DNA from: Methylobacterium tardum
GTDB taxonomy: Bacteria; Pseudomonadota; Alphaproteobacteria; Rhizobiales; Beijerinckiaceae
Direction of reading: 5' to 3'
DNA: 64,000 bases
Assembly: GCF_023546765.1 (NCBI RefSeq)
Contig: NZ_CP097484.1
Location: 2,140,001-2,204,000, forward strand
Every line of letters begins with the position of its first letter. Position 1 is the first letter of the stretch. Shown here one piece after another: positions 24,869-61,856 of the stretch. The notes beneath the pieces are model-generated. The model was not told where the DNA came from, did not search any database, and was given only the letters and a program-made list of their open reading frames with translations. A program made the translations under genes and the position numbers.

Positions 24869-24889
24869 TGGCGGAGGGAGCGGGATTCG
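24869..24889 (-). other. Putative att core: tRNA-Ser 3' end (left copy)
   Basis: Read on the minus strand the 21 bases are the typical 3' end of a tRNA-Ser gene: the GAATC of the T-loop, the T-arm closing strand, the acceptor strand CCCTCC, G73 and CCA. The 5' body of the tRNA is absent; the bases upstream do not rebuild the full T-loop. The repeat ends exactly at the CCA. This fits a tyrosine-recombinase attachment core. Confidence 0.7.
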
Positions 24890-24999
24890 CCCCAGCCACC
24901 GATTTCTACCGCACGATCAATAGTCTCGCTTCCTTGCTCAAGGGGTAACACCGTGGGACCTCGCGTCAAGCGAGGCTCCATGGTCCCGACCTTCGGTCG

Positions 25000-25494
25000 T
25001 CAGCGCCCGGCAGTCGTCGCGGGGCTCACATCGGATCCGCAGCCACCCGCCTCCGGCTCAGGGTAGGAGACGGGCGCCCCGACCTCGACGACAGGCGACG
25101 CACACGTCTCGGCTTCGAGGTCCTCCAGCAGCACCAGTTCCGGTGCCTGCCCGGTGAGGTTGATCAACGCCACCTCGTGCCCGGCGACGTAGCTTTGGAG
25201 GTAGCGCAGGTCCTTCTCCTGCTCGCCGAGGCGGGCACGGATCCGCTCGTTCTCGGCATCTTGATGATCGATCAGGGCGTTCACGCTGGCGATCAACACG
25301 TCGCCGATGTGGATCTTCCGCTCACGCATCTCCGTGCGCAGGCGCATCAGGTGCTGGGCGAGTTCCTCCTCGGTGCGGGCGCGCTTGGCGTTCTGCTCCT
25401 CCAGGAACTCAACCTTGAGCGACAGCGCCTCGACCATGGTCATGGCCTTGCGCAGGGCTGCGACGAGCTTGGCGGGATCGATATCGGCCATCAC
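25000..25494 (-). CDS. Coiled-coil hypothetical protein (left arm copy)
   Basis: 164 residues. Residues 5-105 are strongly helical and heptad-like (VEALSLKVEFLEEQNAKRAR, ENERIRARLGEQEKDLRYLQ); the tail is acidic and proline-rich. It overlaps the upstream gene by 4 bases (ATGA), so the two form an operon. The right-arm copy at 61231-61725 differs by one Gly/Asp exchange (KIHIGD versus KIHIDD). No family recognised. Confidence 0.65.
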   Translation of the reverse strand: MMADIDPAKLVAALRKAMTMVEALSLKVEFLEEQNAKRARTEEELAQHLMRLRTEMRERKIHIGDVLIASVNALIDHQDAENERIRARLGEQEKDLRYLQSYVAGHEVALINLTGQAPELVLLEDLEAETCASPVVEVGAPVSYPEPEAGGCGSDVSPATTAGR

Positions 25495-26195
25495 GCGTCC
25501 TCCGTCCCGGCGACGAGGCCGTGCGGGTCGTAGAGCGCGTGCCGCTTGGGCGCGTTCGCCTTTTTGGACCGGGTGTTGGCGTAGAACGGGCCGATCTCGA
25601 TGACCTCGGCGTCAAGGTGCAGGCGCGCCTCCATCCCTTCCTCGCCCGCCACGACGAGCAGGAACTGGCCGTGGAAGTAGTGGTTGCCGGGCGGCGAGCC
25701 GATGTGGCCCATCTTGGCCCACAGCGCCTCCGGCTCGTCGCGCATCCAGGCCGCGGCGGCGTCGGCAGCCTCGCGGTAGGGCGCGAGCCCGGTCTCCGGG
25801 ATCCGGCCCGCGGCGTGCTCCTGCTCGGCCCAGGCCACAACCTTCTTCGGGTCGATGAGCTCGACGAGCCGGTGCCAGTGCGGGGTGCGCTGGTTCAAGG
25901 GCATGCCGTCGTCGAGGTAGACCCGCAACTTGATGGTATGCTGGGTGTTGCCCTTGCCGGGGTTCGGCCCGTTGTCGAAGAACTGCGCCCGCATGGCGCG
26001 GACCCGACCCAGCGGCGGGAACCGGGTGAACCAGGGCTTGCTGTCCTTCCTCGGCTTCTTCCCGGCAGGCCGCGGCGCGGACGCGCGGGACAGAGTAAGA
26101 GGAGCGTCCGCCTCAGGCAGAGTGGGGGGCGAGGACATGAGGGGAACGGTGGGCTCGCTGCCGATGAAGGCGTCGAGCCAGTCGGAGTCACGCAT
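25491..26195 (-). CDS. Hypothetical protein (left arm copy, intact)
   Basis: 234 residues. A Ser/Pro-rich N-terminus is followed by a basic stretch (RPAGKKPRKDSKPW) and a folded region with TQHTIKLRVYLDDGMPLNQR, PHWHRLVELIDPKKVVAWAE and GNHYFHGQFLLVVAGEEGME. No domain recognised. First gene of a two-gene operon with the coiled-coil protein. The partner copy in the right arm is frame-broken by a shorter C run, so only this copy can give the full product. Confidence 0.65.
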   Translation of the reverse strand: MRDSDWLDAFIGSEPTVPLMSSPPTLPEADAPLTLSRASAPRPAGKKPRKDSKPWFTRFPPLGRVRAMRAQFFDNGPNPGKGNTQHTIKLRVYLDDGMPLNQRTPHWHRLVELIDPKKVVAWAEQEHAAGRIPETGLAPYREAADAAAAWMRDEPEALWAKMGHIGSPPGNHYFHGQFLLVVAGEEGMEARLHLDAEVIEIGPFYANTRSKKANAPKRHALYDPHGLVAGTEDA

Positions 26196-26301
26196 TGGGG
26201 GAAAACCTCTTGAAGCAATAGGTAGACTTTACCAGCCCCCTGGAGGCCGCCTCAATATTATTCGATCCTCATGAATGGGAAGCGCTCCTGATCGGCAGCC
26301 A

Positions 26302-26359
26302 TTCTCATTGAACATCTTGATCAAGTTCAGGTGCAAGGAAGAATATTGTTCAATGAGAA
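26302..26359. promoter_or_regulatory. 13-bp inverted repeat around a palindrome, upstream of the arm operon
   Basis: TTCTCATTGAACA (26302-26314) and TGTTCAATGAGAA (26347-26359) are perfect inverted repeats 32 bases apart. The perfect palindrome CTTGATCAAG lies just inside the first half. The sequence is AT-rich against a high-GC background and lies about 110 bp upstream of the gene starting at 26195. Candidate operator or recombinase/replication site; the right arm has the same element. Confidence 0.5.
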
Positions 26360-26859
26360 ACAGGGCTGCTGCCCCTCGTCTCGGAAGAAAACGGAGTGAC
26401 ACCGCTCGACGCGCTTCACTCGTCTCGCAAGAGAAAAATCGGCGACCGCCGTGCTGCGCCCGTCGCCCGCCAAATGAACTCGACGGGGAACGCCTCGTGC
26501 TCCTCGCCTCTGGCTCGTCGCCTCGGGATCAACACCCGGATCCGCAGGAGCGGATCGGCCACCGGATGCCACCTGCGAACCAGTACCGCCATCGACCGAG
26601 GCGCCCTATCACCCAGGGCCAATTAAGCGAGCCCCGATGCCCGAACCGCGCCGCCACGATACCACCTGCGGGCGCCCGGCATCGCCGGGGCACACACACT
26701 CTATAGTCAGATCCAGCCACCGATCCGGCGGGCGTCTCCCAGGCCCCATCTCCACGCTGGGTGCCCCTCGGGGAGCCTCGGCTGCCGCGGGATCCTGGCG
26801 AACGGATCCAGCCGGTCGAACCACTGGTCGGGCTGATCCTCGCGGGCTGAACGTCGGCG

Positions 26860-27315
26860 ATGGTCCGGAGGATGATCTTCGAGCCATCGATCGAGATTAA
26901 AATAATGCGACCTCCGACACGAGGTAGTATTGTAAGTTTATCGGCGCTTCTGCCGGTAAGGACCTCTTTTACCGTGAACAAGAACGAAGACGTTAAGTAC
27001 ACCTACGCCTTGCCGATTTACAATTATCGCTCTTCTGCCGTTTTGAAGTTGATCGAATTGGCGCATAAACATGCCGAGTTCTCGACCAGGGAGGTTGAGG
27101 ACACTTGGGCGTTGACCCGTTGGCCTCACCACGTCCTCATCGGCTTCAAGCTGCGTGACGACCAGCGCTTCTTCAAGCGCACCTTCTGGAGCCGGAACGC
27201 GGCGGAGATCCATCAGTACGGGCTCGCGGCGCCCGGCTCCTACACCCCGCCGTATGCTCCGCCTCCCACCAGCGCGAGGGCTGCTCTGGACGAGATCCGC
27301 AGGCGCCTCAGCTAA
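26860..27315 (+). CDS. Hypothetical protein (left arm copy)
   Basis: 151 residues as an open frame; the best protein-like part runs from about residue 40 (VKYTYALPIYNYRSSAVLKL, HAEFSTREVEDTWALTRWPH, LRDDQRFFKRTFWSRNAAEI). An internal ATG (MRPPTRGSIV) is a possible start. The opposite strand has an overlapping ORF of similar length but poorer composition, so the plus strand is preferred. GC is lower than in the neighbouring genes. No family recognised. Confidence 0.5.
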   Translation: MVRRMIFEPSIEIKIMRPPTRGSIVSLSALLPVRTSFTVNKNEDVKYTYALPIYNYRSSAVLKLIELAHKHAEFSTREVEDTWALTRWPHHVLIGFKLRDDQRFFKRTFWSRNAAEIHQYGLAAPGSYTPPYAPPPTSARAALDEIRRRLS

Positions 27316-27355
27316 CGAACGCACTGAGCGGAGTGTCTTGATCGCGACCCGCTCA

Positions 27356-27979
27356 TCACGCCGCGGCGGTGATTGTCTCCTCATCCTGGGAGGCGGTCAT
27401 CGCCACATGCACGCGCTGCACGGTCGAGGCGCCGACGCCGGTCCGGCGCGCCGTCTCTCGGATCCCGACCCCGGCTGCCAGTAGCGCCCGGATTGCCTCG
27501 GCTTTCTCCGCGTCCAGCGGCGGCCGACCGAGGCGAGTGCCCTTCGATCGCGTGCGCTCCAAACCCGCCAGGACGCGGTCACGGACCATGCTGCGCTCAT
27601 AATCGGCGAAGACCGACAAGAGCGAGAAGAGCAGCCGACCCGAGGGCGTCGTTGTGTCGAGCCCTTGGACGTGCAGGTACAGACCGACCCCGCGGCTCTG
27701 AACCTCGGCGAGGAAGCCGACGAGGTCCTGGAGCGAACGCCCGAGGCGGTCCACGCTCCAGGCCGCGATTAGATCGTACTCGCGCCGGGCGACTCCCTTG
27801 AGGAGAGCATCGTAGCCCGGCCGCCGATCGCGCCCACGCGCGCCACTGATCCCCTCATCAATGTGGATCGCCACGACGGTCCAGCCCAGCCGGGCACCAA
27901 CCGCCTGAAGTTCGCGAAGTTGGTTCTCAACCGTCTGCCCCTTGGACGTGCTTACGCGGGCATAGAGTGCGACCTTCAT
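27356..27979 (-). CDS. Small serine recombinase, resolvase/invertase type (left arm copy)
   Basis: 207 residues from ATG 27979. The N-terminal catalytic domain begins MKVALYARVSTSKGQTVENQ, with the nucleophile Ser10 and Arg8. It continues with DEGISGARGRDRRPGYDALL, AWSVDRLGRSLQDLVGFLAE and YERSMVRDRVLAGLERTRSK. The C-terminal helix-turn-helix (AIRALLAAGVGIRETARRTG, then VGASTVQRVH) is of the Hin/resolvase type. Family members act on short paired sites by 2-bp staggered cuts. A palindrome with a 2-bp centre lies 53 bp upstream of the start. The same gene faces it in the right arm. Confidence 0.92.
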   Translation of the reverse strand: MKVALYARVSTSKGQTVENQLRELQAVGARLGWTVVAIHIDEGISGARGRDRRPGYDALLKGVARREYDLIAAWSVDRLGRSLQDLVGFLAEVQSRGVGLYLHVQGLDTTTPSGRLLFSLLSVFADYERSMVRDRVLAGLERTRSKGTRLGRPPLDAEKAEAIRALLAAGVGIRETARRTGVGASTVQRVHVAMTASQDEETITAAA

Positions 27980-28031
27980 CGCCCCCAGATTCTCACGGAT
28001 CCGCGCCTCGGCCAAGCCTACGGCCACGAGC

Positions 28032-28063
28032 CCTGTCCCAGAACCAGATGGTTCCGGGACAGG
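28032..28063. promoter_or_regulatory. Candidate serine-recombinase crossover site (left arm copy)
   Basis: A 32-bp near-perfect palindrome: CCTGTCCC-A-GAACCA, central GA, TGGTTC-C-GGGACAGG. Only the 40/55 pair and the central dinucleotide break symmetry. A third copy of the half-site GGGACAGG lies at 28119-28126. Symmetric half-sites around a 2-bp asymmetric centre, next to a resolvase-type gene, are the expected layout of a res/inversion site. The assignment is inference. Confidence 0.5.
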
Positions 28064-28616
28064 CCGACATAAGAGCCGCCGCGAAGGGAAAATGGGAGCC
28101 GAAAACGAGAGGGTTTTTGGGACAGGATGCGGAACGGTTGGCCAGACGACCACCGCCGCCGAGATCTCGAACAGCCACGAAGGGCATGATCACCGTCGAG
28201 GTGACCATGGACGCGACGTTCTTGGGCATGATCCTGCACCGCCGTGAGGCGCGCTGCCCGAAGTTCGAGAACAACGGGTACGAGGGCTCGCCACTGTGCC
28301 CTCGGTGAAGATGGTGACCTCCGGAGAGGACCATCCTTTCGAGATCGGCAGGGCATAGCCCTGGATCACGGCCTCTATGATCTCGAACTCCGCATGAACG
28401 TCGAGAGCCGGACGACCGACGCGAACTTCGTCAACAAAATCCGCATGGGTGCAGGTGCCTATCCTGGCGGTTGAGGATCTGAGCCTCGAAGCCGTCGTGC
28501 TCGCGAACCTTGTTGCTCTCGCGCAAGCGCACCTACACGCACCCCAGGACGTAGCGCGCGTCGTGCTCGGCAACCGGATCTGCGAAGTGGACGAGTAGAC
28601 AACCTTGCTGCACGCG

Positions 28617-28633
28617 TTTTCGTATATCGAAAA
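28617..28633. promoter_or_regulatory. TTTTCG/CGAAAA dyad 1
   Basis: TTTTCG-TATAT-CGAAAA, a perfect 6-bp dyad with a 5-base spacer. Related dyads lie at 28735-28748 and 29214-29228. Candidate operators or binding sites for a regulator or partition protein. Confidence 0.35.
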
Positions 28634-28734
28634 GCGCGTCGGTGCCCGTGCTTGTCGTAATGTTGCCCGAGTGCGAGATGGCGCCCGTGAGCAAGACGTT
28701 GCCCGTGCGCGAGATGTCGATCTCGGCGACATCG

Positions 28735-28748
28735 TTTTCGTGCGAAAA
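28735..28748. promoter_or_regulatory. TTTTCG/CGAAAA dyad 2
   Basis: TTTTCG-TG-CGAAAA, the same half-site as the dyad at 28617 with a 2-base spacer. It overlaps the GTG start region of the decayed frame on the minus strand. Confidence 0.3.
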
Positions 28749-28754
28749 ACGCAC

Positions 28755-29384
28755 GATCGACCACGCTCGGAGATCGAAGGCTGCTCTCGCCGCAGTGACG
28801 CGAACTCTGGGCGATATAGCGTCAGCCGATGCATGGTCCGCGCGAGCCGACCGTCGCGTGAACTGCTGCCGTATGGACGCTTCGCATGCCCGTTCCAGGC
28901 AAGGTCCGTCCGATGATCGTGGGCGAGCGTGGCCGTCGAGACCTCCGGGCGGAAGTTCGACGCCGACACTGGCCTGCGTAATGGTCGAGCCGATGATGGG
29001 AGAAGGCTGGGGCCGGATCGGTGGAGCGAGGTCGGCAGAACGTCGAGATCACCGCAAGAAGCATTAGGGGGGTGGCGGCCCAGACGGAGGGCGCTCCACC
29101 TGCTCGATCGCCGCTTGGGTGCGACCCGAACTTCGTGATCATCATAGAGGAAAAGGCGGGACGACGTATCCTCGGTGTAGACGACTGTCTTCTAGGTCAT
29201 CGACGCGTTCGTTTTTCGTATAACGAAATGCTCGGCGATTGCGCGGGAAAATTCCATCAGTGGAATTTGCCGCTGCCTCTTGCAAAGCAGTGCTGTTTTG
29301 TTATGTGTTTGTCACCCGAGCGGCCGACTGCTTCAGTTTCCATGATGGATGTTAGTTCGGCCGTGGTTCGGCTGCGCGGCTGAA
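28755..29384. other. Gene-poor stretch upstream of the DUF3102 protein
   Basis: ORFs here are short and compositionally poor on both strands, and no motif was recognised. The last 200 bases are more AT-rich, contain a TTTCG/CGAAA dyad (29214-29228) and end in GGAG before the start at 29401, so the promoter of that gene is probably here. Confidence 0.4.
29214..29228. promoter_or_regulatory. TTTCG/CGAAA dyad 3
   Basis: TTTCG-TATAA-CGAAA, about 170 bp upstream of the DUF3102/ParB-like gene. It is closely similar to the dyad at 28617 (same 5-base AT spacer). Confidence 0.4.
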
Positions 29385-29400
29385 ACGGAGAACACATAAT

Positions 29401-30420
29401 ATGGGTGCGCCGCCGATCACAGAGCCCAATTCTGGCCCTACGGCCTTCGACTACGCTGGAATGGATGCGGAGGTTGCCCGTGAGGCTCGCTCAGTGGTCG
29501 AGCGCTATCACCAGCGAACTCGCACCTACGTAATCAACACGGGTTCCGACCTCTTGGAGATGAAGGCGCGCCTCGATCGCGGCACTTTCTATCCGTGGGC
29601 CAAGTCCGAGATGGGTATCAGCCCTCGCATGGCTCAGAACTTCATGCGGGCCGCCAAGCGGTTCGGGGACAAAAGCGAAATAATTTCGCGTTTGCCTCCG
29701 ACAGCCATCTACGCGCTGGCAGCGCCCTCGACGCCCGACGCACTGTGCGCATCTGTGGCCGAACGGCTTGAGGCTGGCCAAAAGTTGACCAGCAAGGCGG
29801 TTGCCGCCGAGATCCGCGAGGCTCGTGCTGCCGCCAAGGTCAAGGGTCAGCAGGCTGACCCGCTGCACCAGTGGCATGGACAGGAGGAGGGTGCGCCCGA
29901 GCGCCGCGAGCCGCCGCAGGCGCCCGAGCCTCATGAGATGTGGCAGGCTCGCCAAGAGCGAGAGGCGAGGCACGCGCCCAACGACGATGTCGGGGTTGCG
30001 TTTCTTATGCGGGAACTCGGCTCCGAGGTCTTGTCGGCGTTTGGCACCCGGTTCGGGCACCAAGGGTTCGCAAGTGTGATGGCGAAGGCGATCGTCGCAG
30101 CGGACGTGGCGCGCGCCCAGGCCATGCATACGATCATGGTGCCGGTGGACGCCTTCGCGCGGATTGGGCTCCTGTCTGACGCAAACGAGAGCCAGCGGTG
30201 GGTGGGGCGGATGGCCAGCTTCGAGGCGTCCCTCAACTGGGGAGAAACGCTCCCGCCGATCGTTGCCGTCGTGGGGCAAGACGGCCGCTACACGCTGATC
30301 GCGGGGGAGTACACCTTCTGGACGTTGCGAGATCGCTTGAGCCACGAGACCGTGCCCGTCCACGTTGTCCCGGCGACCGACCCAGTTGCTATTGCGGCGA
30401 TCGAAGCCATCGATGCCTGA
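29401..30420 (+). CDS. DUF3102 and ParB-like domain protein
   Basis: 339 residues. The N-terminal region (RTRTYVINTGSDLLEMKARL, then GTFYPWAKSEMGISPRMAQN and FMRAAKRFG) is the DUF3102 signature found on plasmids and integrative elements. The C-terminal part (LPPIVAVVGQDGRYTLIAGE, then YTFWTLRD) resembles a ParB/sulfiredoxin-type fold with its G-xY-LI-GE pattern. The middle is Gln/Glu/Pro-rich. GGAG precedes the ATG. Likely an element maintenance or regulatory DNA-binding protein. The nearby TTTCG dyads are possible targets. Confidence 0.7.
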   Translation: MGAPPITEPNSGPTAFDYAGMDAEVAREARSVVERYHQRTRTYVINTGSDLLEMKARLDRGTFYPWAKSEMGISPRMAQNFMRAAKRFGDKSEIISRLPPTAIYALAAPSTPDALCASVAERLEAGQKLTSKAVAAEIREARAAAKVKGQQADPLHQWHGQEEGAPERREPPQAPEPHEMWQARQEREARHAPNDDVGVAFLMRELGSEVLSAFGTRFGHQGFASVMAKAIVAADVARAQAMHTIMVPVDAFARIGLLSDANESQRWVGRMASFEASLNWGETLPPIVAVVGQDGRYTLIAGEYTFWTLRDRLSHETVPVHVVPATDPVAIAAIEAIDA

Positions 30421-30659
30421 AATTCCATCTGTCGGCCGGGACAAAACCCGGCACGGCGCTAATTGGCGTCGCCGAGATCGTCCGCGCCTACCTGTCGATA
30501 AGGAGGCGCTAGTTCTGGGGCGTGGGGAAAACCGCCCAGGGCAATAGCAACTGCGTATAGGTTGGCCTCCACCAATTCAGGCAGGGGAAGCATGACCTTA
30601 GCTGCCGGTGGGCTTCCACGCCACAGCGCCGGATCCGTCTCGTTCGGGTTCAGAAATGC

Positions 30660-31058
30660 TTAGCTACGCCGGAAGCTGACCTCCAACGCTCGCTGCACCA
30701 GGATGCTCAACGTCATCCGGCCGCCCCAACTCGACGGCCACTCAGGCCCATACTTGGCGCGCTGCCGAGCGAGGATCTCTTCTCGGACTTGATCAAGATG
30801 GAGTTCGGCGTGGCGCTGCCACCGAGCCTCCTCGACTCGGTTTAGGGTCTGGGCGACTGCGCGGCGGTACTCGGCTGTGACATCGAGCAGTGGAAGCTTC
30901 GCTTCGATCCGCAGTGCTTGTCGGGTGAGGATGACGGAGAAGATGGCACCGCGGTCTACGATTGTGAACTCCACACCCCGAACGTCATCAGCAACTTCGG
31001 ACTGGCGCCGATCCCGACGATGCTCGCATAGATTCGAATTTCTGCAACGACCTACCAC
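30660..31058 (-). CDS. Hypothetical protein, uncertain start
   Basis: Up to 132 residues. The convincing part starts around VEFTIVDRGAIFSVILTRQA and continues as a helical region (AEYRRAVAQTLNRVEEARWQ, HLDQVREEILARQRAKYGPE). The beginning resembles DUF1488-like small proteins, but this is weak. A GTG near 30974 is an alternative start. No operon partner: it converges with the DUF3102 gene. Confidence 0.45.
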   Translation of the reverse strand: MVGRCRNSNLCEHRRDRRQSEVADDVRGVEFTIVDRGAIFSVILTRQALRIEAKLPLLDVTAEYRRAVAQTLNRVEEARWQRHAELHLDQVREEILARQRAKYGPEWPSSWGGRMTLSILVQRALEVSFRRS

Positions 31059-31216
31059 GAAAAAGCTGCTGGATATCCTCAGGCTGGACGCCCAGATTTA
31101 ACCACGACTCGCTTCATCTTCACGCATCGTTGCGGTCCATCAGCATTGTGGTAGAATTTGCACAAGGTCGAAACGGGTGGCGCGGGAACGCGTGACCACG
31201 GCGATGCTGTCGGAGC

Positions 31217-32425
31217 ATGCCGTTGGCCCATCGGCGATGCGATCACATCACTGAGAACCCGGCTGAGACGGCCAACGAAGCAACACCGATCACCGGTTGG
31301 GCCCTGACGCGGCTTTCGCTTCTCGATCGAAAGGGCGCCCGCGGACTCATCGCTGATCTCTGCGTCGCGGGAGTGCTCCGGCGGCAAGCTGCCTTCGTCG
31401 CTCTCGCCACCCTTGACCTGGATGCACCCGGCCCCTTCCTTCGCTGCCTCGCCATTGATACTGCGGGTGCTGAAGGTATCGGTCTCGCGCTTCGAACCCG
31501 TCGCGCCCGGCAGATCATTGCGGCAGCCTTCGCCGTCGAACCCCAGGACGTGCCCACCGGCTACCTCCGGGCGCTCGCCAGGATCGAGGAAATTGGCGCG
31601 AAGGGAGCGGGCCTGCATCCGTTCGTCGATCCCACCGCATATCATCGCCTGTTCGAGATCCTCGCCGTCGAGCGTCACAGTCGCCGGGCGCACGCGCTGA
31701 GGTACTCCGGCAAGCTGATGTCCATTACCGTCGAGGCAGCCATGACCCTGGACCCTGTCCTGGTCTGGCCCGACGTTCTCGCCGTCGCCGGTACGCCGCA
31801 GCGCGTCGTGGCGATGAATGCGGTGCTGGACCTCATCCGGATCTGCCACTCGGTCGTAGACGAAGACGCCGTCGTCGCCGCGCTGCGCCAGTCGCTCAAG
31901 AGCCTGGGGGTCATTGAGGCGTTCGCCAAGTCCGCTCTCGATACCGCGGATCGCCTGCCCACCCCGCTGCCAGCAGCCGAAGGCATCCGGCCGCTCCGGA
32001 CGGCCGCGGAGTACCGTGAGATCGGCACCAAGCTCCGCAACTGCGCGAGCACGAAGATCGCCGAGGCTGCGCTCGGTCTACTCGCAGTCGTAGAGGTAAT
32101 GCACCGCGCCGAAGACGGCACGGAGATGACCCTCGCGGCATCGCTGACGCCGACCATCGACGGACTTTGGATGGTCTCGGAAGTCGGCGGGATGAAGAAC
32201 CGGCAACCCTCCAGAGAGGTGCTCTACCCTGTGCTGAGGCGCCTGGAGGCGCTCGGCGCGATCATCCCCGGCCCGGCGATCGGCGGCCCCTATCGAAAGG
32301 ATGTGGCCGATCTGCTGGGGATCTACCGCTACGCGCCCCTCCACGACGCTCTTCACCCGCACGGCAGCAGCGAGGAGGACGAGGTTCTCGCAGCGCTGGA
32401 GGGTGAAGCTGACGAGGCGGCCTGA
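31217..32425 (+). CDS. Hypothetical protein of 402 residues
   Basis: Soluble, mostly helical. The N-terminal 260 residues are repeat-like helices without a recognised domain. From about 255 a more conserved-looking section reads EGIRPLRTAAEYREIGTKLR NCAS, then LAASLTPTIDGLWMVSEVGG. This vaguely recalls PcfJ-like element proteins (a Cys/His 'NC' core after an e-G-x-L-x-NC stretch), but too weakly for assignment. The C-terminus is acidic. It stands alone on its strand ahead of the J-domain gene. Confidence 0.6.
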   Translation: MPLAHRRCDHITENPAETANEATPITGWALTRLSLLDRKGARGLIADLCVAGVLRRQAAFVALATLDLDAPGPFLRCLAIDTAGAEGIGLALRTRRARQIIAAAFAVEPQDVPTGYLRALARIEEIGAKGAGLHPFVDPTAYHRLFEILAVERHSRRAHALRYSGKLMSITVEAAMTLDPVLVWPDVLAVAGTPQRVVAMNAVLDLIRICHSVVDEDAVVAALRQSLKSLGVIEAFAKSALDTADRLPTPLPAAEGIRPLRTAAEYREIGTKLRNCASTKIAEAALGLLAVVEVMHRAEDGTEMTLAASLTPTIDGLWMVSEVGGMKNRQPSREVLYPVLRRLEALGAIIPGPAIGGPYRKDVADLLGIYRYAPLHDALHPHGSSEEDEVLAALEGEADEAA

Positions 32426-32553
32426 TCCGGGAGGCGGCGGGTGACCATCGGGTTCGACGACATCCTCGACCGCAGGGATGAGGGAAGCACGCGTGATCGG
32501 CGTCGCCTCATAGTCACCTCTGGTGAGGCGCTGGCGGCGTTCCTGCTCCGCCC

Positions 32554-33072: not shown

Positions 33073-33228
33073 TACCGCTCTGCACGCTGATCCTGTCGTA
33101 CAAACCCGATTGAATTCGCAGCATTGCGTTGATCGCCAGAGACGATCACGAAACTTCTGACTGCATGTGCGTGTCTGTTATATAAGTAGATAGAAGATAT
33201 TCATCCCAGATAATATCCCAGGAATAAG

Positions 33229-33860: not shown

Positions 33861-33888
33861 CCGGTGAGCAGCCGAGGGGATGATCCGG

Positions 33889-35957: not shown

Positions 35958-35962
35958 CCCTC

Positions 35963-44695: not shown

Positions 44696-44699
44696 GGCC

Positions 44700-53333: not shown

Positions 53334-53354
53334 CGCGGGACCTGCCTGATGAAA

Positions 53355-53542: not shown

Positions 53543-53580
53543 AGCCCCGTCGCCCGATCTGATCACGGGCTGACGGGGCT
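53543..53580. terminator. Strong long hairpin, terminator or other structured element
   Basis: AGCCCCGTC-GCCCG, loop ATCTGATCA, CGGGC-T-GACGGGGCT: 14 paired bases with a single bulge. It lies in a 300-bp gap between the zinc-ribbon-like gene and the DUF1236 gene (which ends at 53670 reading toward it). No U-tract, so rho-independent termination is not certain. Confidence 0.45.
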
Positions 53581-53669
53581 CGATGCCCTTCGTTGCTCGG
53601 CGTCACGGTGGTGGCGATCCTGGCGACCTGCGGGCTCGCCGCGCCGTACCTTGACACTACCCTCTGGCG

Positions 53670-54092: not shown

Positions 54093-54220
54093 GCGGTATC
54101 TTCCTGCTCGGTTGCGCGGGCCTTCAGGCAAGCGCCTGAGGGTGCGAAGACCTGCCGAGAGACGGGTCGAACGTCGGACAGTCGGGACAGCGCCTGACAC
54201 CGTCCCGACTAGACTGTAGC

Positions 54221-54511
54221 TCAGGCTGCCTCGGCCAGGGGCGCGGGCGATGGCGCGTCCATGGCGCGCAGGTACACGTCGAGTAGGGTCTCCTGCTCGT
54301 CGCGCTCGTCCTTGTCCTGCTTGCGGATCTTCAGGATCTCCTTGAGTACCTTCACGTCCAGGCCCTCACCCTTGGCCTCGGCGAAAATTTCCTTCTTGGC
54401 CTCCATCAGGTCCTTGATCTCTTCCTCCAGTCGCTCGATGCGCTCGATGATCGAGCAGATGCGTTCGCCTGCCACGGCCACGGTGTCGGTGACTTCGATC
54501 TTCCCGCTCAT
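54221..54511 (-). CDS. GapR/DUF2312-family DNA-binding protein
   Basis: 96 residues. SIIERIERLEEEIKDLMEAK, then KEIFAEAKGEGLDVKVLKEI and LKIRKQDKDERDEQETLLDV, then YL, is the GapR/UPF0335 signature. GapR clamps overtwisted, AT-rich DNA ahead of replication and transcription forks and supports topoisomerases. The chromosomal gene is usually single; a copy within an island suggests a paralogue acting on the element. Canonical N-terminus shorter by little; all helices present. Confidence 0.88.
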   Translation of the reverse strand: MSGKIEVTDTVAVAGERICSIIERIERLEEEIKDLMEAKKEIFAEAKGEGLDVKVLKEILKIRKQDKDERDEQETLLDVYLRAMDAPSPAPLAEAA

Positions 54512-54759
54512 GTGCTAATCCTTGCGACGAGGCGCGCGACCGTGGCCAGTCAGGGTAAGCGTGACGTTAAAGGGAACGGGATGGCGCGAGGCTCTGCTGT
54601 AACGCCGCTGGACCGACCCCACTCATGGCAATGGTGGGCGGATCACCTTCCGATAGCCGGTCAACCACGGCTGTGACTGGCGTAGAGCCTCGGCCGGTTC
54701 GGGTGTAAGCCTGATGTCACCGCAACGACTAGCAGGACGCCATGCAGAAGGAATGACGC

Positions 54760-55446
54760 ATGTTCTCCGTGATCTTCGAAGCTCATCCGCGCGCCGAGCA
54801 GTGGGACGCCTATCTCGGGCACGCCAAGATCCTGCGGCCGGAGTTGGAGCAGATCGACGGTTTCGTGGAGAACGTCCGCTACCGCAGCCTCACCCGCGAG
54901 GGCTGGATCCTGTCGCTCTCAGGCTGGCGCGACGAGAAGGCAGTGGTGCGCTGGCGAACGCGAGTGCGGCACCACGAGGCCCAGGCGACGGGTCGGTCCG
55001 AGATCCTGCACAATTACCACCTGCGCGTCGGTCAGGTCACCAAGGACACGCAGGTTCCCAAGGGTCACGCGTTGACCGAGCAGCGCCTGGACGAGACCGA
55101 GATCGGCTTAGGCACGACCGTTAGCCTGATCGATGCAAGCCGCCCACTTGGCGGGACAGAACAGGCGAGCCCGGACGCGCTCGCCCGATGGCTTGGCCTC
55201 AGCCCCAAGACAGATGGCCTCGTCGCCTGGGACGTGTTCGAGGCCATCCTGACGCCGGGTGACTTCGTACTGCTTCTGTCCTGGCGAAATCGTGGGGCCG
55301 CCGAAGGGTTCGAGCCGGAGGTCGCGCTGCCGGAAGAATGCAGGCTGCGCCGTGTTCGCGTGATACGCGACTACGGCATGTTCGACCGTAGGGAGGCGCC
55401 GCAATACTACCCCGACGCCGCAGGTGCGGAGACCATCCACGACTGA
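54760..55446 (+). CDS. Antibiotic-biosynthesis-monooxygenase (ABM) fold protein, tandem domains
   Basis: 228 residues with two ABM-like ferredoxin folds. The first (about 1-95) reads MFSVIFEAHPRAEQWDAYLG, VENVRYRSLTREGWILSLSG and WRDEKAVVRWRTRVRHHEAQ. The second (about 110-215) has VAWDVFEAILTPGDFVLLLS and CRLRRVRVIRDYGMFDRREA. ABM proteins act as small oxygenases or stress-associated dimers; substrate unknown. Stand-alone gene. Confidence 0.8.
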   Translation: MFSVIFEAHPRAEQWDAYLGHAKILRPELEQIDGFVENVRYRSLTREGWILSLSGWRDEKAVVRWRTRVRHHEAQATGRSEILHNYHLRVGQVTKDTQVPKGHALTEQRLDETEIGLGTTVSLIDASRPLGGTEQASPDALARWLGLSPKTDGLVAWDVFEAILTPGDFVLLLSWRNRGAAEGFEPEVALPEECRLRRVRVIRDYGMFDRREAPQYYPDAAGAETIHD

Positions 55447-55479
55447 TGGATTCAGGGTTCAGCAGGGCTGGTCACGCCC

Positions 55480-55659
55480 TCAGGCATCGTCGGCGTCAAG
55501 GATGGTCTCCAGATCGCCAACCAGCGCTTCCAGTTGGTCCGCCTTCGCCTTGAGCTTGAGCTTTGTGCCGTCCTGCGCCTCGATGGCGATCTCGATATGG
55601 TCCTCGATCCGTGCCGCCAGCGCGTCCTTGATCGTGAAAGTCGTCACGTCGTTGGCCAT
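55480..55659 (-). CDS. Small hypothetical protein
   Basis: 59 residues from ATG 55659 (MANDVTTFTIKDALAARIED). GAGGAGGTAAG is a strong ribosome-binding site. The rest (AIEAQDGTKLKLKAKADQLE, ALVGDLETILDADD) is a beta-hairpin plus helix. No family recognised. Confidence 0.6.
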   Translation of the reverse strand: MANDVTTFTIKDALAARIEDHIEIAIEAQDGTKLKLKAKADQLEALVGDLETILDADDA

Positions 55660-55731
55660 CTTACCTCCTCGATCACTCGTTGACCTGAGCGGAGGGCGCC
55701 TCGACGGCGCCCTCACATTCGGCGGCTGACA

Positions 55732-55893
55732 CTACTCCTTGTCGCCTCGGTGGATGCCCTTCTCGCGGTTCTCCTTCAGGCGGCCATCGTCCGAGTGATG
55801 GACCGTTCCCTGGTTGTCGTGGTTTGGGTCCTTGTTGTTCTTCGTCGCGTGACCAGTATTACTTGACTGGTTCTGCTGCTTCTTGTCGGTCAT
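55732..55893 (-). CDS. Very small hydrophilic protein
   Basis: 53 residues (MTDKKQQNQSSNTGHATKNN ... RLKENREKGIHRGDKE), rich in Asn/Gln/Lys/His/Asp and probably disordered. Such short hydrophilic proteins are often stress-induced. It ends 72 bases upstream of the 59-residue gene on the same strand. Confidence 0.5.
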   Translation of the reverse strand: MTDKKQQNQSSNTGHATKNNKDPNHDNQGTVHHSDDGRLKENREKGIHRGDKE

Positions 55894-56211
55894 ATAGGCA
55901 AATTTCCTTCAGTGGCCGCCAGTACCGGCAGTTGTCCCGACAACATGCGGCGACGATACGGGTTCCAGGGACGGTATCAGCTTTAACTCACCTGAACTGC
56001 GACACTCCGTCAGACTCGACGAGGCGCATTGTTGCTTCGGAGCGCATCATGGGTCCGTGGAAGCTCTTGTGAGAGTTCGTGAACCGGCGATGGCTGCCAT
56101 GTCATCGAATGCGCGTCAGCACCGCTCGTTTGCGGCGCACACCCTGGACCGCTCACGGGTCTGTGATCGGTCTGCTTCGATTTCGACTGCATTCTTAATT
56201 CGGTATGCCAG

Positions 56212-56448
56212 ATGTCGGAGCTACGAGATCTCATGAACGAGACGCACCAGATCCTGACGTGCATCGCCGAGGCTCTCGGCGTGCCCGTGGAGACATTCAC
56301 GGGCCCATTCGCCGAGTCGGATGCGGCGATGCTCGGCGAGTTGATCTCCATGTGGCTCTCGATGGGCCGGGGGGCAGACCGCAACAAGGTGCTGGGCTAC
56401 ACTCGCGCTATCCTGGCCGCTCAGCAGCAGGTCGAGATGCGTCGTTGA
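56212..56448 (+). CDS. Small protein resembling the C-terminal part of an XRE regulator
   Basis: 78 residues. TCIAEALGVPVETFTGPFAE, then LGELISMWLSMGRGADRNKV, is similar to the protein at 48371-48598 and to the post-HTH helices of the XRE regulator at 48732-49172. No helix-turn-helix. Function unknown. Confidence 0.5.
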   Translation: MSELRDLMNETHQILTCIAEALGVPVETFTGPFAESDAAMLGELISMWLSMGRGADRNKVLGYTRAILAAQQQVEMRR

Positions 56449-56656
56449 GAGTGTCATTGGGGACAGTAGCGTCCGGCGTGTGCTCACCGGCCGCTTCCAC
56501 CTCAGACCGGGCCAGGGACTGCGATGCCGCAGGTCCGGGCAAGGCCCGGAGAGTCTCTTATCGCGCTTGATAGCCGCAGCCCGAGCATCTGCGGATCCGG
56601 ACTCACCACGGCGCGGTTTCCGACGATTGCCAAACGATGTAGCCCCGGAGAGCTTC

Positions 56657-57058
56657 ATGAACGCTGCACCAGACGGATCCGTCATCCAGCGCGACGCACC
56701 GCGGGCTGATCTCATCGCCTTCGAGATCAAGGACAAGATCACCAAGTCCGACATAGAGTGGATGAGCCGGATCACCGACGAGGCCATGCAGGCGCACGGG
56801 AAGATCGACATGCTGCTGATCATGTCGAACTACGAAGGGTCCGACCTCGGCGCGAAGTTTGACGGCTACGCGAACGAGGTGAAGGTCCGGTCGGTGGCCC
56901 ACATCCGGAAGTACGTCGTGGTCGGCGCACCGACGTTCGCTCGTGCCATGATCAAGCTGTCGGGGACGGTCATTCCGGTAGAGACGAAGACATTCGATCT
57001 GGCTGAGGAGGCTGCGGCGTGGGCCCACCTCGCTGAAGCGGGACCAGCTACCGCCTGA
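56657..57058 (+). CDS. SpoIIAA-like (STAS-fold) family protein
   Basis: 133 residues from the ATG opening MNAAPDGSVIQRDAPRADLI. AFEIKDKITKSDIEWMSRIT and IDMLLIMSNYEGSDLGAKFD then KVRSVAHIRKYVVVGAPTFA match the SpoIIAA-like family (STAS-related lipid/anti-sigma-antagonist fold). The family's role is poorly known. The in-frame upstream extension is poor and rejected. Confidence 0.75.
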   Translation: MNAAPDGSVIQRDAPRADLIAFEIKDKITKSDIEWMSRITDEAMQAHGKIDMLLIMSNYEGSDLGAKFDGYANEVKVRSVAHIRKYVVVGAPTFARAMIKLSGTVIPVETKTFDLAEEAAAWAHLAEAGPATA

Positions 57059-57200
57059 GCAGACCGGGAAGTACCTCGGCGATCACATCCAAGGAGTCTT
57101 CACCCGCTTGGCGTCGCTCAACAGCTTCTTTGTAGCAGAAAGTGGGACGCTGGCGTAATGCTCGCCCCGAGGGGCGAGCATTTCTAATGCGCAGATGCGA

Positions 57201-57629
57201 TCAGATGCACATCCGGATGGCGACGAGGTCGCTCGGGGTATCAGCATAGATGTTCACCGTCCCCCAGGAAGAACGCCCGAACCTCGGGGGGACATCGAAT
57301 TGCAGGTTGGCGATGGCGTCCCTGACATATTCCTCCCTAGCCCACACCCTCATTTTGAAACGCCGCTCAACGTGCGTGATGATCTCGACTTGTCCACCGA
57401 TAGCAAGACGCGGGTGGGCCAGCAGCCGGGTCGCAATGATGTTGATGTCGTCCAAGCGCTTGGTGCCGTAATTGAAATGCATCACGGCTTCCTCGCCCTT
57501 CCAGAGCACCGGCAACTTGAACGCAGAAAAGAAATAGTCATCGTAGGCGATCGGAATTTCGAGACCGTTCGGGAAGATCCTCACGCCACACTCGACGGCG
57601 CGAGCGCGCTTCCAAATCTTGAACTTCAT
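57201..57629 (-). CDS. Hypothetical protein
   Basis: 142 residues from ATG 57629 (MKFKIWKRARAVECGVRIFP). Beta-rich with LEIPIAYDDYFFSAFKLPVL, INIIATRLLAHPRLAIGGQV and REEYVRDAIANLQFDVPPRF. No family recognised. Composition is less GC-rich than the backbone. Confidence 0.5.
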   Translation of the reverse strand: MKFKIWKRARAVECGVRIFPNGLEIPIAYDDYFFSAFKLPVLWKGEEAVMHFNYGTKRLDDINIIATRLLAHPRLAIGGQVEIITHVERRFKMRVWAREEYVRDAIANLQFDVPPRFGRSSWGTVNIYADTPSDLVAIRMCI

Positions 57630-58059
57630 GGTGAAATGACTTTCTGGCAATCGCCGGGCCCACCAATTGGGCTGGCTTTCTCTTGATGCCAGATGCTGCT
57701 GGGCGAAGTCGAAATTATTCTTTTAGGCAAAAACGCTGCCGCGAACCAGTGGGTAGTCGCGCCTCTTCTGGTGCTAATACACAGCGCATTGTCCCTAAGC
57801 TTTGGGGCCCTAGATGCACGGAGGTCTTCCCGGCGGAAAATCGACCCGTTGTACACTTGATCGCGTTCGCGGGGATCAAAGTGCTCTCTGCCACCCTGCT
57901 CCCGGCCATGTAGTCCTAGGAGTGCCGCTATTTCCCCGAGCAACTACACCGAGGGCACGTCGTCCCCACCCTGTCGTCAATAGTGATCACGTGGTTCGGG
58001 CACCGCCTCAGCAGCGGTCTCGGAGGGTGACGCCGAACATTCCTCCCGAAGTTCGAGAC
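57630..58059. other. Gene-poor stretch inside the right end of the island centre
   Basis: ORFs on both strands overlap and none shows motif or convincing composition. No regulatory site identified. Confidence 0.4.
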
Positions 58060-58331
58060 CTAGCTCCACTCTTCGAACCCCGAGTCATCTGTGGCCTTGG
58101 TGGTGATCACGACTTTCTCCAGACCTTGGCCGCCGATCCGGCTGCGGATCTCTCTCGTCAATGGCCGCTTCATGATGGAGATTGTCGTCCACTCCGAGGA
58201 CCCAGTCCGCTCACGCGTGCTCCTGAAGTTGCGCTCGGCGTCGTTGAGCAGGGCCTTCTCGAACCCCTCGTCGGCGCTGATATCGTGATTGTCCTCGTTG
58301 AAGGACGCCTGCTTGATCGAGTGCGTCCTCC
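58060..58331 (-). pseudogene. Gene fragment cut by the right inverted arm
   Basis: Reading from 58331 to the TAG at 58060-58062 gives good protein sequence in one frame: IKQASFNEDNHDISADEGFE, then KALLNDAERNFRSTRERTGS and IGGQGLEKVVITTKATDDSG. It has no start, and the frame hits a TGA as soon as it enters the arm. The gene was therefore truncated at the arm's inner edge. No family recognised and its missing 5' part is not in this window as far as I can see. Confidence 0.6.
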
Positions 58332-58661
58332 GCGGAGTTCGAGATCATAGAGGCCGTGATCCAGGGCTATGCCCTGCCGATCTCGAAAGGATGGTCCTCT
58401 CCGGAGGTCACCATCTTCACCGAGGGCACAGTGGCGAGCCCTCGTACCCGTTGTTCTCGAACTTCGGGCAGCGCGCCTCACGGCGGTGCAGGATCATGCC
58501 CAAGAACGTCGCGTCCATGGTCACCTCGACGGTGATCATGCCCTTCGTGGCTGTTCGAGATCTCGGCGGCGGTGGTCGTCTGGCCAACCGTTCCGCATCC
58601 TGTCCCAAAAACCCTCTCGTTTTCGGCTCCCATTTTCCCTTCGCGGCGGCTCTTATGTCGG

Positions 58662-58693
58662 CCTGTCCCGGAACCATCTGGTTCTGGGACAGG
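58662..58693. promoter_or_regulatory. Candidate serine-recombinase crossover site (right arm copy)
   Basis: Identical to the 32-bp palindrome at 28032-28063, in inverted orientation, 53 bp upstream of the recombinase start at 58746. The asymmetric 2-bp centre gives each copy a direction; the two copies point in opposite directions, the geometry for inversion. Confidence 0.5.
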
Positions 58694-58745
58694 GCTCGTG
58701 GCCGTAGGCTTGGCCGAGGCGCGGATCCGTGAGAATCTGGGGGCG

Positions 58746-59369
58746 ATGAAGGTCGCACTCTATGCCCGCGTAAGCACGTCCAAGGGGCAGACGGTTGAGA
58801 ACCAACTTCGCGAACTTCAGGCGGTTGGTGCCCGGCTGGGCTGGACCGTCGTGGCGATCCACATTGATGAGGGGATCAGTGGCGCGCGTGGGCGCGATCG
58901 GCGGCCGGGCTACGATGCTCTCCTCAAGGGAGTCGCCCGGCGCGAGTACGATCTAATCGCGGCCTGGAGCGTGGACCGCCTCGGGCGTTCGCTCCAGGAC
59001 CTCGTCGGCTTCCTCGCCGAGGTTCAGAGCCGCGGGGTCGGTCTGTACCTGCACGTCCAAGGGCTCGACACAACGACGCCCTCGGGTCGGCTGCTCTTCT
59101 CGCTCTTGTCGGTCTTCGCCGATTATGAGCGCAGCATGGTCCGTGACCGCGTCCTGGCGGGTTTGGAGCGCACGCGATCGAAGGGCACTCGCCTCGGTCG
59201 GCCGCCGCTGGACGCGGAGAAAGCCGAGGCAATCCGGGCGCTACTGGCAGCCGGGGTCGGGATCCGAGAGACGGCGCGCCGGACCGGCGTCGGCGCCTCG
59301 ACCGTGCAGCGCGTGCATGTGGCGATGACCGCCTCCCAGGATGAGGAGACAATCACCGCCGCGGCGTGA
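58746..59369 (+). CDS. Small serine recombinase, resolvase/invertase type (right arm copy)
   Basis: Protein identical to the product of 27356-27979: 207 residues, Ser10 nucleophile in YARVSTSKGQ, Arg residues of the YERSMVRDRV region and a C-terminal helix-turn-helix. In this arm it is transcribed away from the island centre. The frame is open upstream of the ATG, but MKVALYARVS is the standard family start. Confidence 0.92.
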   Translation: MKVALYARVSTSKGQTVENQLRELQAVGARLGWTVVAIHIDEGISGARGRDRRPGYDALLKGVARREYDLIAAWSVDRLGRSLQDLVGFLAEVQSRGVGLYLHVQGLDTTTPSGRLLFSLLSVFADYERSMVRDRVLAGLERTRSKGTRLGRPPLDAEKAEAIRALLAAGVGIRETARRTGVGASTVQRVHVAMTASQDEETITAAA

Positions 59370-59409
59370 TGAGCGGGTCGCGATCAAGACACTCCGCTCA
59401 GTGCGTTCG

Positions 59410-59865
59410 TTAGCTGAGGCGCCTGCGGATCTCGTCCAGAGCAGCCCTCGCGCTGGTGGGAGGCGGAGCATACGGCGGGGTGTAGGAGCCGGGCGCCGCG
59501 AGCCCGTACTGATGGATCTCCGCCGCGTTCCGGCTCCAGAAGGTGCGCTTGAAGAAGCGCTGGTCGTCACGCAGCTTGAAGCCGATGAGGACGTGGTGAG
59601 GCCAACGGGTCAACGCCCAAGTGTCCTCAACCTCCCTGGTCGAGAACTCGGCATGTTTATGCGCCAATTCGATCAACTTCAAAACGGCAGAAGAGCGATA
59701 ATTGTAAATCGGCAAGGCGTAGGTGTACTTAACGTCTTCGTTCTTGTTCACGGTAAAAGAGGTCCTTACCGGCAGAAGCGCCGATAAACTTACAATACTA
59801 CCTCGTGTCGGAGGTCGCATTATTTTAATCTCGATCGATGGCTCGAAGATCATCCTCCGGACCAT
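59410..59865 (-). CDS. Hypothetical protein (right arm copy)
   Basis: Same 151-residue frame as 26860-27315, converging on the recombinase gene. No sequence difference from the left copy was noticed. Confidence 0.5.
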   Translation of the reverse strand: MVRRMIFEPSIEIKIMRPPTRGSIVSLSALLPVRTSFTVNKNEDVKYTYALPIYNYRSSAVLKLIELAHKHAEFSTREVEDTWALTRWPHHVLIGFKLRDDQRFFKRTFWSRNAAEIHQYGLAAPGSYTPPYAPPPTSARAALDEIRRRLS

Positions 59866-60365
59866 CGCCGACGTTCAGCCCGCGAGGATCAGCCCGACCA
59901 GTGGTTCGACCGGCTGGATCCGTTCGCCAGGATCCCGCGGCAGCCGAGGCTCCCCGAGGGGCACCCAGCGTGGAGATGGGGCCTGGGAGACGCCCGCCGG
60001 ATCGGTGGCTGGATCTGACTATAGAGTGTGTGTGCCCCGGCGATGCCGGGCGCCCGCAGGTGGTATCGTGGCGGCGCGGTTCGGGCATCGGGGCTCGCTT
60101 AATTGGCCCTGGGTGATAGGGCGCCTCGGTCGATGGCGGTACTGGTTCGCAGGTGGCATCCGGTGGCCGATCCGCTCCTGCGGATCCGGGTGTTGATCCC
60201 GAGGCGACGAGCCAGAGGCGAGGAGCACGAGGCGTTCCCCGTCGAGTTCATTTGGCGGGCGACGGGCGCAGCACGGCGGTCGTCGATTTTTCTCTTGCGA
60301 GACGAGTGAAGCGCGTCGAGCGGTGTCACTCCGTTTTCTTCCGAGACGAGGGGCAGCAGCCCTGT

Positions 60366-60423
60366 TTCTCATTGAACAATATTCTTCCTTGCACCTGAAC
60401 TTGATCAAGATGTTCAATGAGAA
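60366..60423. promoter_or_regulatory. 13-bp inverted repeat around a palindrome (right arm copy)
   Basis: Same element as 26302-26359: TTCTCATTGAACA and its complement 32 bases apart with CTTGATCAAG between them, about 110 bp upstream of the start at 60531. Confidence 0.5.
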
Positions 60424-60530
60424 TGGCTGCCGATCAGGAGCGCTTCCCATTCATGAGGATCGAATAATATTGAGGCGGCCTCCAGGGGGCTGGTAAAGTC
60501 TACCTATTGCTTCAAGAGGTTTTCCCCCCA

Positions 60531-61234
60531 ATGCGTGACTCCGACTGGCTCGACGCCTTCATCGGCAGCGAGCCCACCGTTCCCCTCATGTCCTCGCCCC
60601 CACTCTGCCTGAGGCGGACGCTCCTCTTACTCTGTCCCGCGCGTCCGCGCCGCGGCCTGCCGGGAAGAAGCCGAGGAAGGACAGCAAGCCCTGGTTCACC
60701 CGGTTCCCGCCGCTGGGTCGGGTCCGCGCCATGCGGGCGCAGTTCTTCGACAACGGGCCGAACCCCGGCAAGGGCAACACCCAGCATACCATCAAGTTGC
60801 GGGTCTACCTCGGCGACGGCATGCCCTTGAACCAGCGCACCCCGCACTGGCACCGGCTCGTCGAGCTCATCGACCCGAAGAAGGTTGTGGCCTGGGCCGA
60901 GCAGGAGCACGCCGCGGGCCGGATCCCGGAGACCGGGCTCGCGCCCTACCGCGAGGCTGCCGACGCCGCCGCGGCCTGGATGCGCGACGAGCCGGAGGCG
61001 CTGTGGGCCAAGATGGGCCACATCGGCTCGCCGCCCGGCAACCACTACTTCCACGGCCAGTTCCTGCTCGTCGTGGCGGGCGAGGAAGGGATGGAGGCGC
61101 GCCTGCACCTTGACGCCGAGGTCATCGAGATCGGCCCGTTCTACGCCAACACCCGGTCCAAAAAGGCGAACGCGCCCAAGCGGCACGCGCTCTACGACCC
61201 GCACGGCCTCGTCGCCGGGACGGAGGACGCGTGA
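60531..61234 (+). pseudogene. Frame-broken right copy of the 234-residue hypothetical protein
   Basis: Starts like the left copy (MRDSDWLDAFIGSEPTVPLM) but a C run at about 60,597-60,601 has five Cs instead of six. The frame shifts after about codon 23 into an arginine-rich sequence. The remainder (MRAQFFDNGPNPGKGNTQHT onward) is intact in the other frame, where an ATG at 60731 could start a shortened product of 167 residues. One residue also differs (VYLGDG for VYLDDG). Confidence 0.75.
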
Positions 61235-61725
61235 TGGCCGATATCGATCCCGCCAAGCTCGTCGCAGCCCTGCGCAAGGCCATGACCATGGTCGAGGCGC
61301 TGTCGCTCAAGGTTGAGTTCCTGGAGGAGCAGAACGCCAAGCGCGCCCGCACCGAGGAGGAACTCGCCCAGCACCTGATGCGCCTGCGCACGGAGATGCG
61401 TGAGCGGAAGATCCACATCGACGACGTGTTGATCGCCAGCGTGAACGCCCTGATCGATCATCAAGATGCCGAGAACGAGCGGATCCGTGCCCGCCTCGGC
61501 GAGCAGGAGAAGGACCTGCGCTACCTCCAAAGCTACGTCGCCGGGCACGAGGTGGCGTTGATCAACCTCACCGGGCAGGCACCGGAACTGGTGCTGCTGG
61601 AGGACCTCGAAGCCGAGACGTGTGCGTCGCCTGTCGTCGAGGTCGGGGCGCCCGTCTCCTACCCTGAGCCGGAGGCGGGTGGCTGCGGATCCGATGTGAG
61701 CCCCGCGACGACTGCCGGGCGCTGA
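61231..61725 (+). CDS. Coiled-coil hypothetical protein (right arm copy)
   Basis: 164 residues, as in 25000-25494 with one Gly-to-Asp difference (KIHIDDVLIA). It overlaps the preceding frame by 4 bases. A short hairpin (CCTCGC-TTGAC-GCGAGG) follows the stop in both arms. Confidence 0.65.
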   Translation: MMADIDPAKLVAALRKAMTMVEALSLKVEFLEEQNAKRARTEEELAQHLMRLRTEMRERKIHIDDVLIASVNALIDHQDAENERIRARLGEQEKDLRYLQSYVAGHEVALINLTGQAPELVLLEDLEAETCASPVVEVGAPVSYPEPEAGGCGSDVSPATTAGR

Positions 61726-61835
61726 CGACCGAAGGTCGGGACCATGGAGCCTCGCTTGACGCGAGGTCCCACGGTGTTACCCCTTGAGCAAGGAAGCGAG
61801 ACTATTGATCGTGCGGTAGAAATCGGTGGCTGGGG

Positions 61836-61856
61836 CGAATCCCGCTCCCTCCGCCA
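61836..61856 (+). other. Putative att core: tRNA-Ser 3' end (right copy)
   Basis: CGAATCCCGCTCCCTCCGCC followed by A, the same 21 bases as at 24869-24889 in opposite orientation. An integrase N-terminal fragment begins 100 bp beyond it, the usual int-next-to-att arrangement. The repeat between the arms ends exactly here. Confidence 0.7.

Follow-up and report, generated by a model that had tools for sequence, protein, structure and literature searches.

To our knowledge, the usual description of an integrative island has a single attP. An inverted-repeat layout, the same as the one predicted below for an excised circle, underlies the amplification of the yeast 2-micron plasmid by double rolling-circle replication, and the consulted part of that account (PMC3147054), which covers the plasmid and designed systems, suggests the mechanism for chloroplast and herpesvirus DNA as well. 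For archaeal elements, the consulted part of another account (PMC8371274) proposes that int(N) and int(C) parts are exchanged. Here, we describe a locus of Methylobacterium tardum. The window, i.e., the whole stretch of 64,000 nucleotides analyzed, is C1:2140001-2204000 (contig NZ_CP097484.1) of a 6.94-Mb genome in two contigs (G000). It contains all but the right end of a 40.2-kb island that is integrated at a tRNA-Ser gene and in which the attP junction recurs in inverted form, and we consider it fairly probable that this island acts as an excisable and invertible circle.

An island at tRNA-Ser(GGA) with an inverted copy of its attP junction

The island spans 24869-65110 (40,242 bp), and its right end lies beyond the window, where the minus strand carries a tRNA-Ser(GGA) at window coordinates 65111-65200. 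The 3′ end of this tRNA recurs as a direct repeat in the core at 24869-24889 (CGAATCCCGCTCCCTCCGCCA). An earlier note on this DNA had found direct att repeats wanting, but the pair exists, with its second member slightly to the right of the window. Within the window itself, no tRNA was recognized by ARAGORN or by Rfam (gathering threshold). A tyrosine integrase of 452 aa (65011-63653, minus strand) with the Pfam domains DUF6538, Phage_int_SAM_1, and Phage_integrase adjoins the tRNA gene. The boundary was compared with the DNA downstream of tRNA-Ser(GGA) in seven relatives (14.6 to 20 kb each). Similarity to the locus ends at the tRNA 3′ end (65110/65111) in all seven, and in one of them (G002) the bases next to the tRNA match the left flank of the window (24889-24713; 77.6% over 183 columns). 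This is a junction without the island, of the kind that the earlier note had proposed to look for as an empty tRNA-Ser site. The boundary rests on the cores and on the relatives' tRNA-downstream DNA; a left-flank search of 59 genomes, with a query that included only 11 island bases, carries little weight for it. With direct cores at a tRNA 3′ end, an integrase by the att site, and an island-free junction in G002, the island is, at its ends, a tRNA-Ser insertion of the ordinary kind.

The interior is less ordinary. The stretches 24869-28393 and 58332-61856 are inverted copies ("arms") of 3,525 bp each that enclose 29,938 bp. Their alignment of 3,526 columns has 99.86% identity, with 3 substitutions and two indels of one base each, spaced about 68 bp from each other. 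The earlier note had described such a near-identical pair in opposite orientation around 29.9 kb, with both outer ends at a tRNA-Ser core, and on both points it was correct: the outer end of each arm opens with TGGCGGAGGGAGCGGGATTCG, the reverse complement of the tRNA-Ser 3′ end, and the flanks diverge from the first base onward. The arm occurs at these two places only in the genome, save for one 82-bp match of 75% identity on the 47-kb contig C2. The claim that the two arms bound the island does not hold, since the right arm is interior, its repeat runs on to 62369, and the tRNA-side end lies at 65110. The extension (61836-62369), which consists of the P′/int part, repeats 64598-65131, to the right of the window, in inverted form and with 100% identity over 534 bp. 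Taken as a whole, the interior copy (58332-62369) has the order arm, core, P′ arm, and first 138 int codons, which is the inverted form of the attP junction expected from excision. The outer ends, when joined in silico as a circle, give two 4,038-bp inverted repeats (IR1 and IR2), each with an attP core, that differ by 3 substitutions and 2 gaps. The unique regions of this predicted circle are 29,938 bp (U_large) and 2,228 bp (U_small) long. The structural features within the window are as follows.

24713..24868, no strand: left flank, with a homologue directly after tRNA-Ser(GGA) in G002 (77.6% over 183 columns including the core)
24869..24889, minus strand: far att core CGAATCCCGCTCCCTCCGCCA, direct with the tRNA-Ser(GGA) 3′ end; island/flank boundary at 24868/24869; junction homologue in G002
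24869..28393, minus strand: outer arm, the P-arm side of the attP junction and first part of IR1; holds two arm open reading frames (ORFs) and the serine recombinase
28394..58331, no strand: U_large, 29,938 bp
58332..62369, plus strand: IR2, interior inverted copy of the attP junction, 4,038 bp, with 3 substitutions and 2 gaps relative to IR1
61836..61856, plus strand: core of the interior copy, in the opposite orientation to the two outer cores
61956..62393, plus strand: truncated integrase ORF, 145 aa, matching the full integrase without difference in its first 138 codons
62370..64000, no strand: U_small, 2,228 bp, reaching 64597 beyond the window
63653..64000, minus strand: C-terminal end of the 452-aa tyrosine integrase (DUF6538 and Phage_integrase), the gene running to 65011 beyond the window

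The integrase gene crosses the repeat edge, with codons 1 to 138 in the repeat and the remainder in U_small. Because both repeats carry identical codons, inversion of the small region would still restore an intact int.

Of the two explanations offered by the earlier note, a duplicated, inverted end stands in the sense that the right arm is part of the inverted attP-junction copy, while two head-to-head integrations are not needed. Head-to-head integrations or an inverted-repeat composite transposon would suit a stretch (24.9-61.9 kb) that has an inverted arm at either end, but the direct att partner is found at the tRNA, beyond the window, P′ and the int N terminus follow in attP order within the interior copy, and the G002 junction speaks against such origins as well. 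None of the five scanned arm ORFs is a transposase, and no target-site duplication was found at the outer ends. We regard this pair of explanations as very improbable.

Inverted integrase copies in other Methylobacterium genomes

The arm was searched for in 60 relatives and the own genome, and int was surveyed in 111 genomes of the genus, the own genome included. Some arm match was present in 15 of the 61 genomes, mostly short, and one relative only, G010 (judged to be Methylobacterium sp. PvR107), has the recombinase part as two inverted copies. The search for the same arms in relatives, which the earlier note had advised, thus led to a second species with the same inverted layout. In the genus survey, the arm recombinase matched in 8 genomes (E ≤ 1e-40), with an inverted pair in G000 and G010 only. 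The integrase matched in 47 genomes (E ≤ 1e-10), and an inverted copy of the int N terminus lies beside int at three loci, namely those of G000, G010, and G069.

The locus of G010, a single-contig genome, has the order tRNA-Ser(GCT), full int, rest of the small region, inverted copy of int (100% identical over 533 bp), core, arm, 26,705 bp, inverted arm, and core. Its predicted circle of about 39.1 kb would consist of inverted repeats of 4,472 bp, a U_small of 2,145 bp, and a U_large of 26,705 bp. The repeats are without substitution, and one arm only carries a 1.3-kb insertion sequence with a 3-bp duplication, whose ORF, judged by eye, resembles an IS3-type transposase. The earlier note had raised the possibility of an assembly artifact, to which long, nearly identical repeats are known to be prone; one end would then have been assembled twice, in inverted form. 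We consider this extremely improbable because the arm copies of G000 differ at five places and because the independent G010 has the same layout, with the insertion sequence in one of its arms.

The locus of a third genome, G069, has the opposite arrangement, in which the truncated int copy touches tRNA-Ser(GGA) and int faces the interior core. Its inverted repeat is 528 bp long and 98.9% identical, and its P arm aligns next to the core with the P arms of G000 and G010 and carries part of the arm gene of G010. The G069 integrase is 62 to 75% identical at the protein level. Across the three genomes, the breakpoint in int falls within about 7 nucleotides. Identity between repeats is 98.9 to 100% within a genome, whereas G000 and G010 are about 82% identical in P′/int DNA (82 to 84% when the int protein is included) and 72% identical in recombinase DNA. 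We favor one old duplication that may have been held uniform by recombination.

A historical accident would account for the same anatomy differently. Two related islands in tandem at tRNA-Ser, one inversion with breakpoints inside both, and later deletions predict exactly the observed order of pieces and leave the repeats without a role. Accretion at tRNA-Ser has examples in the genus. G034 and G129 each have, at 35 and 18 kb downstream from tRNA-Ser(GGA), respectively, and behind another insertion at that tRNA, a core in direct orientation that is accompanied by a P′-int remnant. Such an accident also predicts an int C terminus at the inner edge of U_large, and neither the window nor the 40 kb of G010 yielded a C-terminal remnant at E values of up to 1. 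It leaves unexplained, unless conversion is added, both the within-genome identity of 98.9 to 100% against 72 to 84% between G000 and G010 and the breakpoint in int common to three lineages. We consider this tandem origin possible but unlikely.

Under the reading of an excisable, invertible circle, Int would use the direct cores to excise the island. The resulting circle would have its 2.2-kb and 29.9-kb unique regions set apart by two 4-kb inverted repeats, an attP in each. Reinsertion at tRNA-Ser could use either attP, and the outcome would be an integrated form like that of G000 or like that of G069. If the repeats recombined, through RecA or through Int at the cores, the unique regions would be inverted and the repeats kept identical; the arms are large enough for homologous inversion, as the earlier note had said. 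Every isomer would hold one intact int because the first 138 codons sit in the repeat and the rest in U_small. The serine recombinase of the arm probably resolves multimers. A serine-invertase switch would place inverted crossover sites for this recombinase at the repeat edges; in G000 and G010 the recombinase is near the inner arm edge, and the edge sequences, judged by eye, have no obvious common site. Excision, inversion, and dual insertion are steps that we infer from the anatomy of the loci.

Several observations weigh against this reading. An inverted int copy is present at just 3 loci in the 111 genomes, and close int relatives without one are found in G098 (80 kb seen), in G073 (34 kb), and at a second locus of G000 itself (60 kb). 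G108 and G074 were left out of this judgment, as their contigs end at the locus; draft contig ends near the recombinase or int (G108, G085, and G098) could reflect repeats and were not used as evidence. G000 and G010 represent the same isomer, with the full int at the tRNA. The one opposite case, G069, is decayed, its int being interrupted by about 1 kb and carrying stops, and the 74 kb inspected beyond it showed neither a far core (with up to 2 substitutions) nor a second arm. The sequence past the int breakpoint is mostly unrelated among the three genomes, which leaves repeated independent duplication at a preferred site as a possible, though less favored, alternative to one old duplication. 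The arm-side edges of G000 and G010 both lie upstream of the serine recombinase, yet at nonhomologous positions. At the island boundary, G002 holds a core-like match (2 mismatches, direct orientation) 18.4 kb downstream, about 18.5 kb after tRNA-Ser(GGA) (L127), and its junction, like the left flank of the window, may be the start of another, older insertion.

Further traces of such elements were seen in the genus. The core-like sequence of G002 suggests a further insertion at the same tRNA. The second int locus of G000 (C1:5532718-5534236, L034) consists of a frame-broken integrase copy with a P′ arm beside tRNA-Ser(GCT), without an inverted copy within the 60 kb. At L133 (G034), L130 (G129), and L076 (G106), direct core, P′, and int N-terminal remnants are detached from any tRNA. 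In six congeneric genomes (L077, L078, L079, L081, L082, and L083), tRNA-Ser is followed only by a P′ arm and a short int N-terminal piece of about 47 to 80 aa; these are either remnants or small stand-alone DUF6538 ORFs.

The first 120 aa of int matched in 1 of 397 genomes of the order, namely the own genome; the N terminus (140 aa) had no relative in viral contigs, and the first 337 aa gave one weak plasmid match (Azospirillum, 36%). The left arm with its flanks (window 24600-28600) had no match in plasmids (near mode) or phages (distant mode).

Gene content of the island

A Pfam scan covered 26 ORFs of the G000 island, out of many more ORFs listed, and recognized no conjugation, capsid, or replication-initiation gene among them. 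The genes of the arms, of U_large, and of U_small that were assigned or examined are given below.

25000..25494, minus strand: arm ORF, 164 aa, no family above cutoff
25491..26195, minus strand: arm ORF, 234 aa, no family; carries a frameshift close to the N terminus in the interior copy
27356..28153, minus strand: serine recombinase (Resolvase, PF00239) of the outer arm; likely true start at a Met about 58 codons in
35991..36929, plus strand: second tyrosine-recombinase-like protein, in U_large, unmatched by the tRNA-side integrase at E values of up to 1
38422..39843, plus strand: C5-cytosine DNA methyltransferase, cargo
39844..41004, minus strand: NOV_C-domain protein, cargo
58572..59369, plus strand: serine recombinase, identical, of the interior copy
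62604..62873, plus strand: DUF6894 protein, in U_small
62848..63639, plus strand: Crp/Fnr-type regulator, in U_small, convergent with int

A homologue of the Crp/Fnr-type regulator (36 to 53% identical, frame-broken) lies at the corresponding place in G010. The cargo of G010 includes type I restriction-modification, a type IV-like restriction enzyme, and GmrSD. One stretch of U_large (33896-35552), which contains a 340-aa ORF without a Pfam family, is 90% identical to the G010 island, compared with 71 to 76% for longer neighboring common stretches; could this be a recent exchange? The 402-aa protein at 31217-32425 has relatives in several Methylobacterium records, and its conserved C-terminal motif, judged by eye, may resemble that of PcfJ-like proteins. 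Left of the island (7249-21148), several repeats of about 70 to 90% similarity lie in neighboring large ORFs (at 7.2, 13.0, 15.2, and 20.5 kb), apparently paralogous sensor proteins, and the ORF at 20650-21864 has PAS and HisKA domains.

Comparison with known systems

The predicted circle raises the question of a bacterial counterpart of the 2-micron plasmid. In such a counterpart, Int inversion at the two attPs during circle replication would start double rolling-circle amplification, and the serine resolvase would yield monomers. The layout fits this idea, and the arms of G010 carry, beside the resolvase and a 166-aa ATPase-like ORF (sub-threshold Pfam matches), a 725-aa protein without a Pfam domain (L018:4578-6755), a fragment of which is kept in G069. 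This protein has 205 relatives at E ≤ 1e-10 among 7,996 candidates scored, and some relatives of 855 aa bear DEAD/DEAH helicase names. It matches in 8 of the 111 genus genomes (E ≤ 1e-60), with an inverted pair only in G010. Among 397 genomes at the level of the order, 3 have a match (E ≤ 1e-40), and in none of them is it an inverted pair. Its AlphaFold2 model (pLDDT, 76; pTM, 0.50) best matches the PrimPol domain of cyanophage S-2L (E = 3.4e-3; probability, 1.00; TM of query, 0.15), with weaker matches to helicases and other PrimPols. On the strength of this model, which resembles the AEP (archaeo-eukaryotic primase)/PrimPol group, the protein is tentatively a helicase-primase replication protein, but the fold match is weak, with none at E ≤ 0.001, and no replication gene was recognized among the scanned ORFs of the G000 element. 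We regard a 2-micron counterpart as rather doubtful. The related proposal for the element family as a whole, in which Int at the inverted attPs of the excised form would trigger amplification, the resolvase would monomerize the products, and the int straddling the repeat edge would keep all isomers competent, seems to us improbable by a similar but slightly smaller measure.

If the reading of an excisable, invertible circle is true, an additional attP in inverted orientation, kept within nearly identical repeats of 4 kb, together with an int that crosses the repeat edge, would make up a built-in inversion and dual-insertion device. It would also provide a concrete bacterial case for asking whether inverted recombinase sites drive the amplification of an excised element. 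Among the open-access papers listed in our searches, at the level of titles and the beginnings of abstracts, no description of an island with an inverted second attP was found.

The element is a known kind of island with an unusual second, inverted attP, present in three genomes. It is like other tRNA islands with a tyrosine integrase in the use of the tRNA 3′ end as attB, the direct cores, the int by the intact tRNA, and the island-free junction in a relative, and it differs from them by the extra inverted attP junction of about 4 kb that includes the integrase N terminus. It shares with the archaeal TKV2/TKV3 and pTN3 Int, as far as the consulted part of the source goes (PMC8371274), inverted integrated sequences and integrases linked to inversion; the copies there are separate elements or chromosomal segments, whereas the inverted copy here lies inside one island. 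Relative to the yeast 2-micron plasmid with its Flp/FRT system, in the consulted part of its description (PMC3147054), the element is bacterial and integrated at a chromosomal tRNA, has repeats of 4 kb instead of 599 bp, and is a conjectural case of amplification. The predicted circle would nevertheless resemble that plasmid in its two unique regions, its two inverted repeats, and the core that each repeat contains as a site for a tyrosine recombinase encoded by the element itself.

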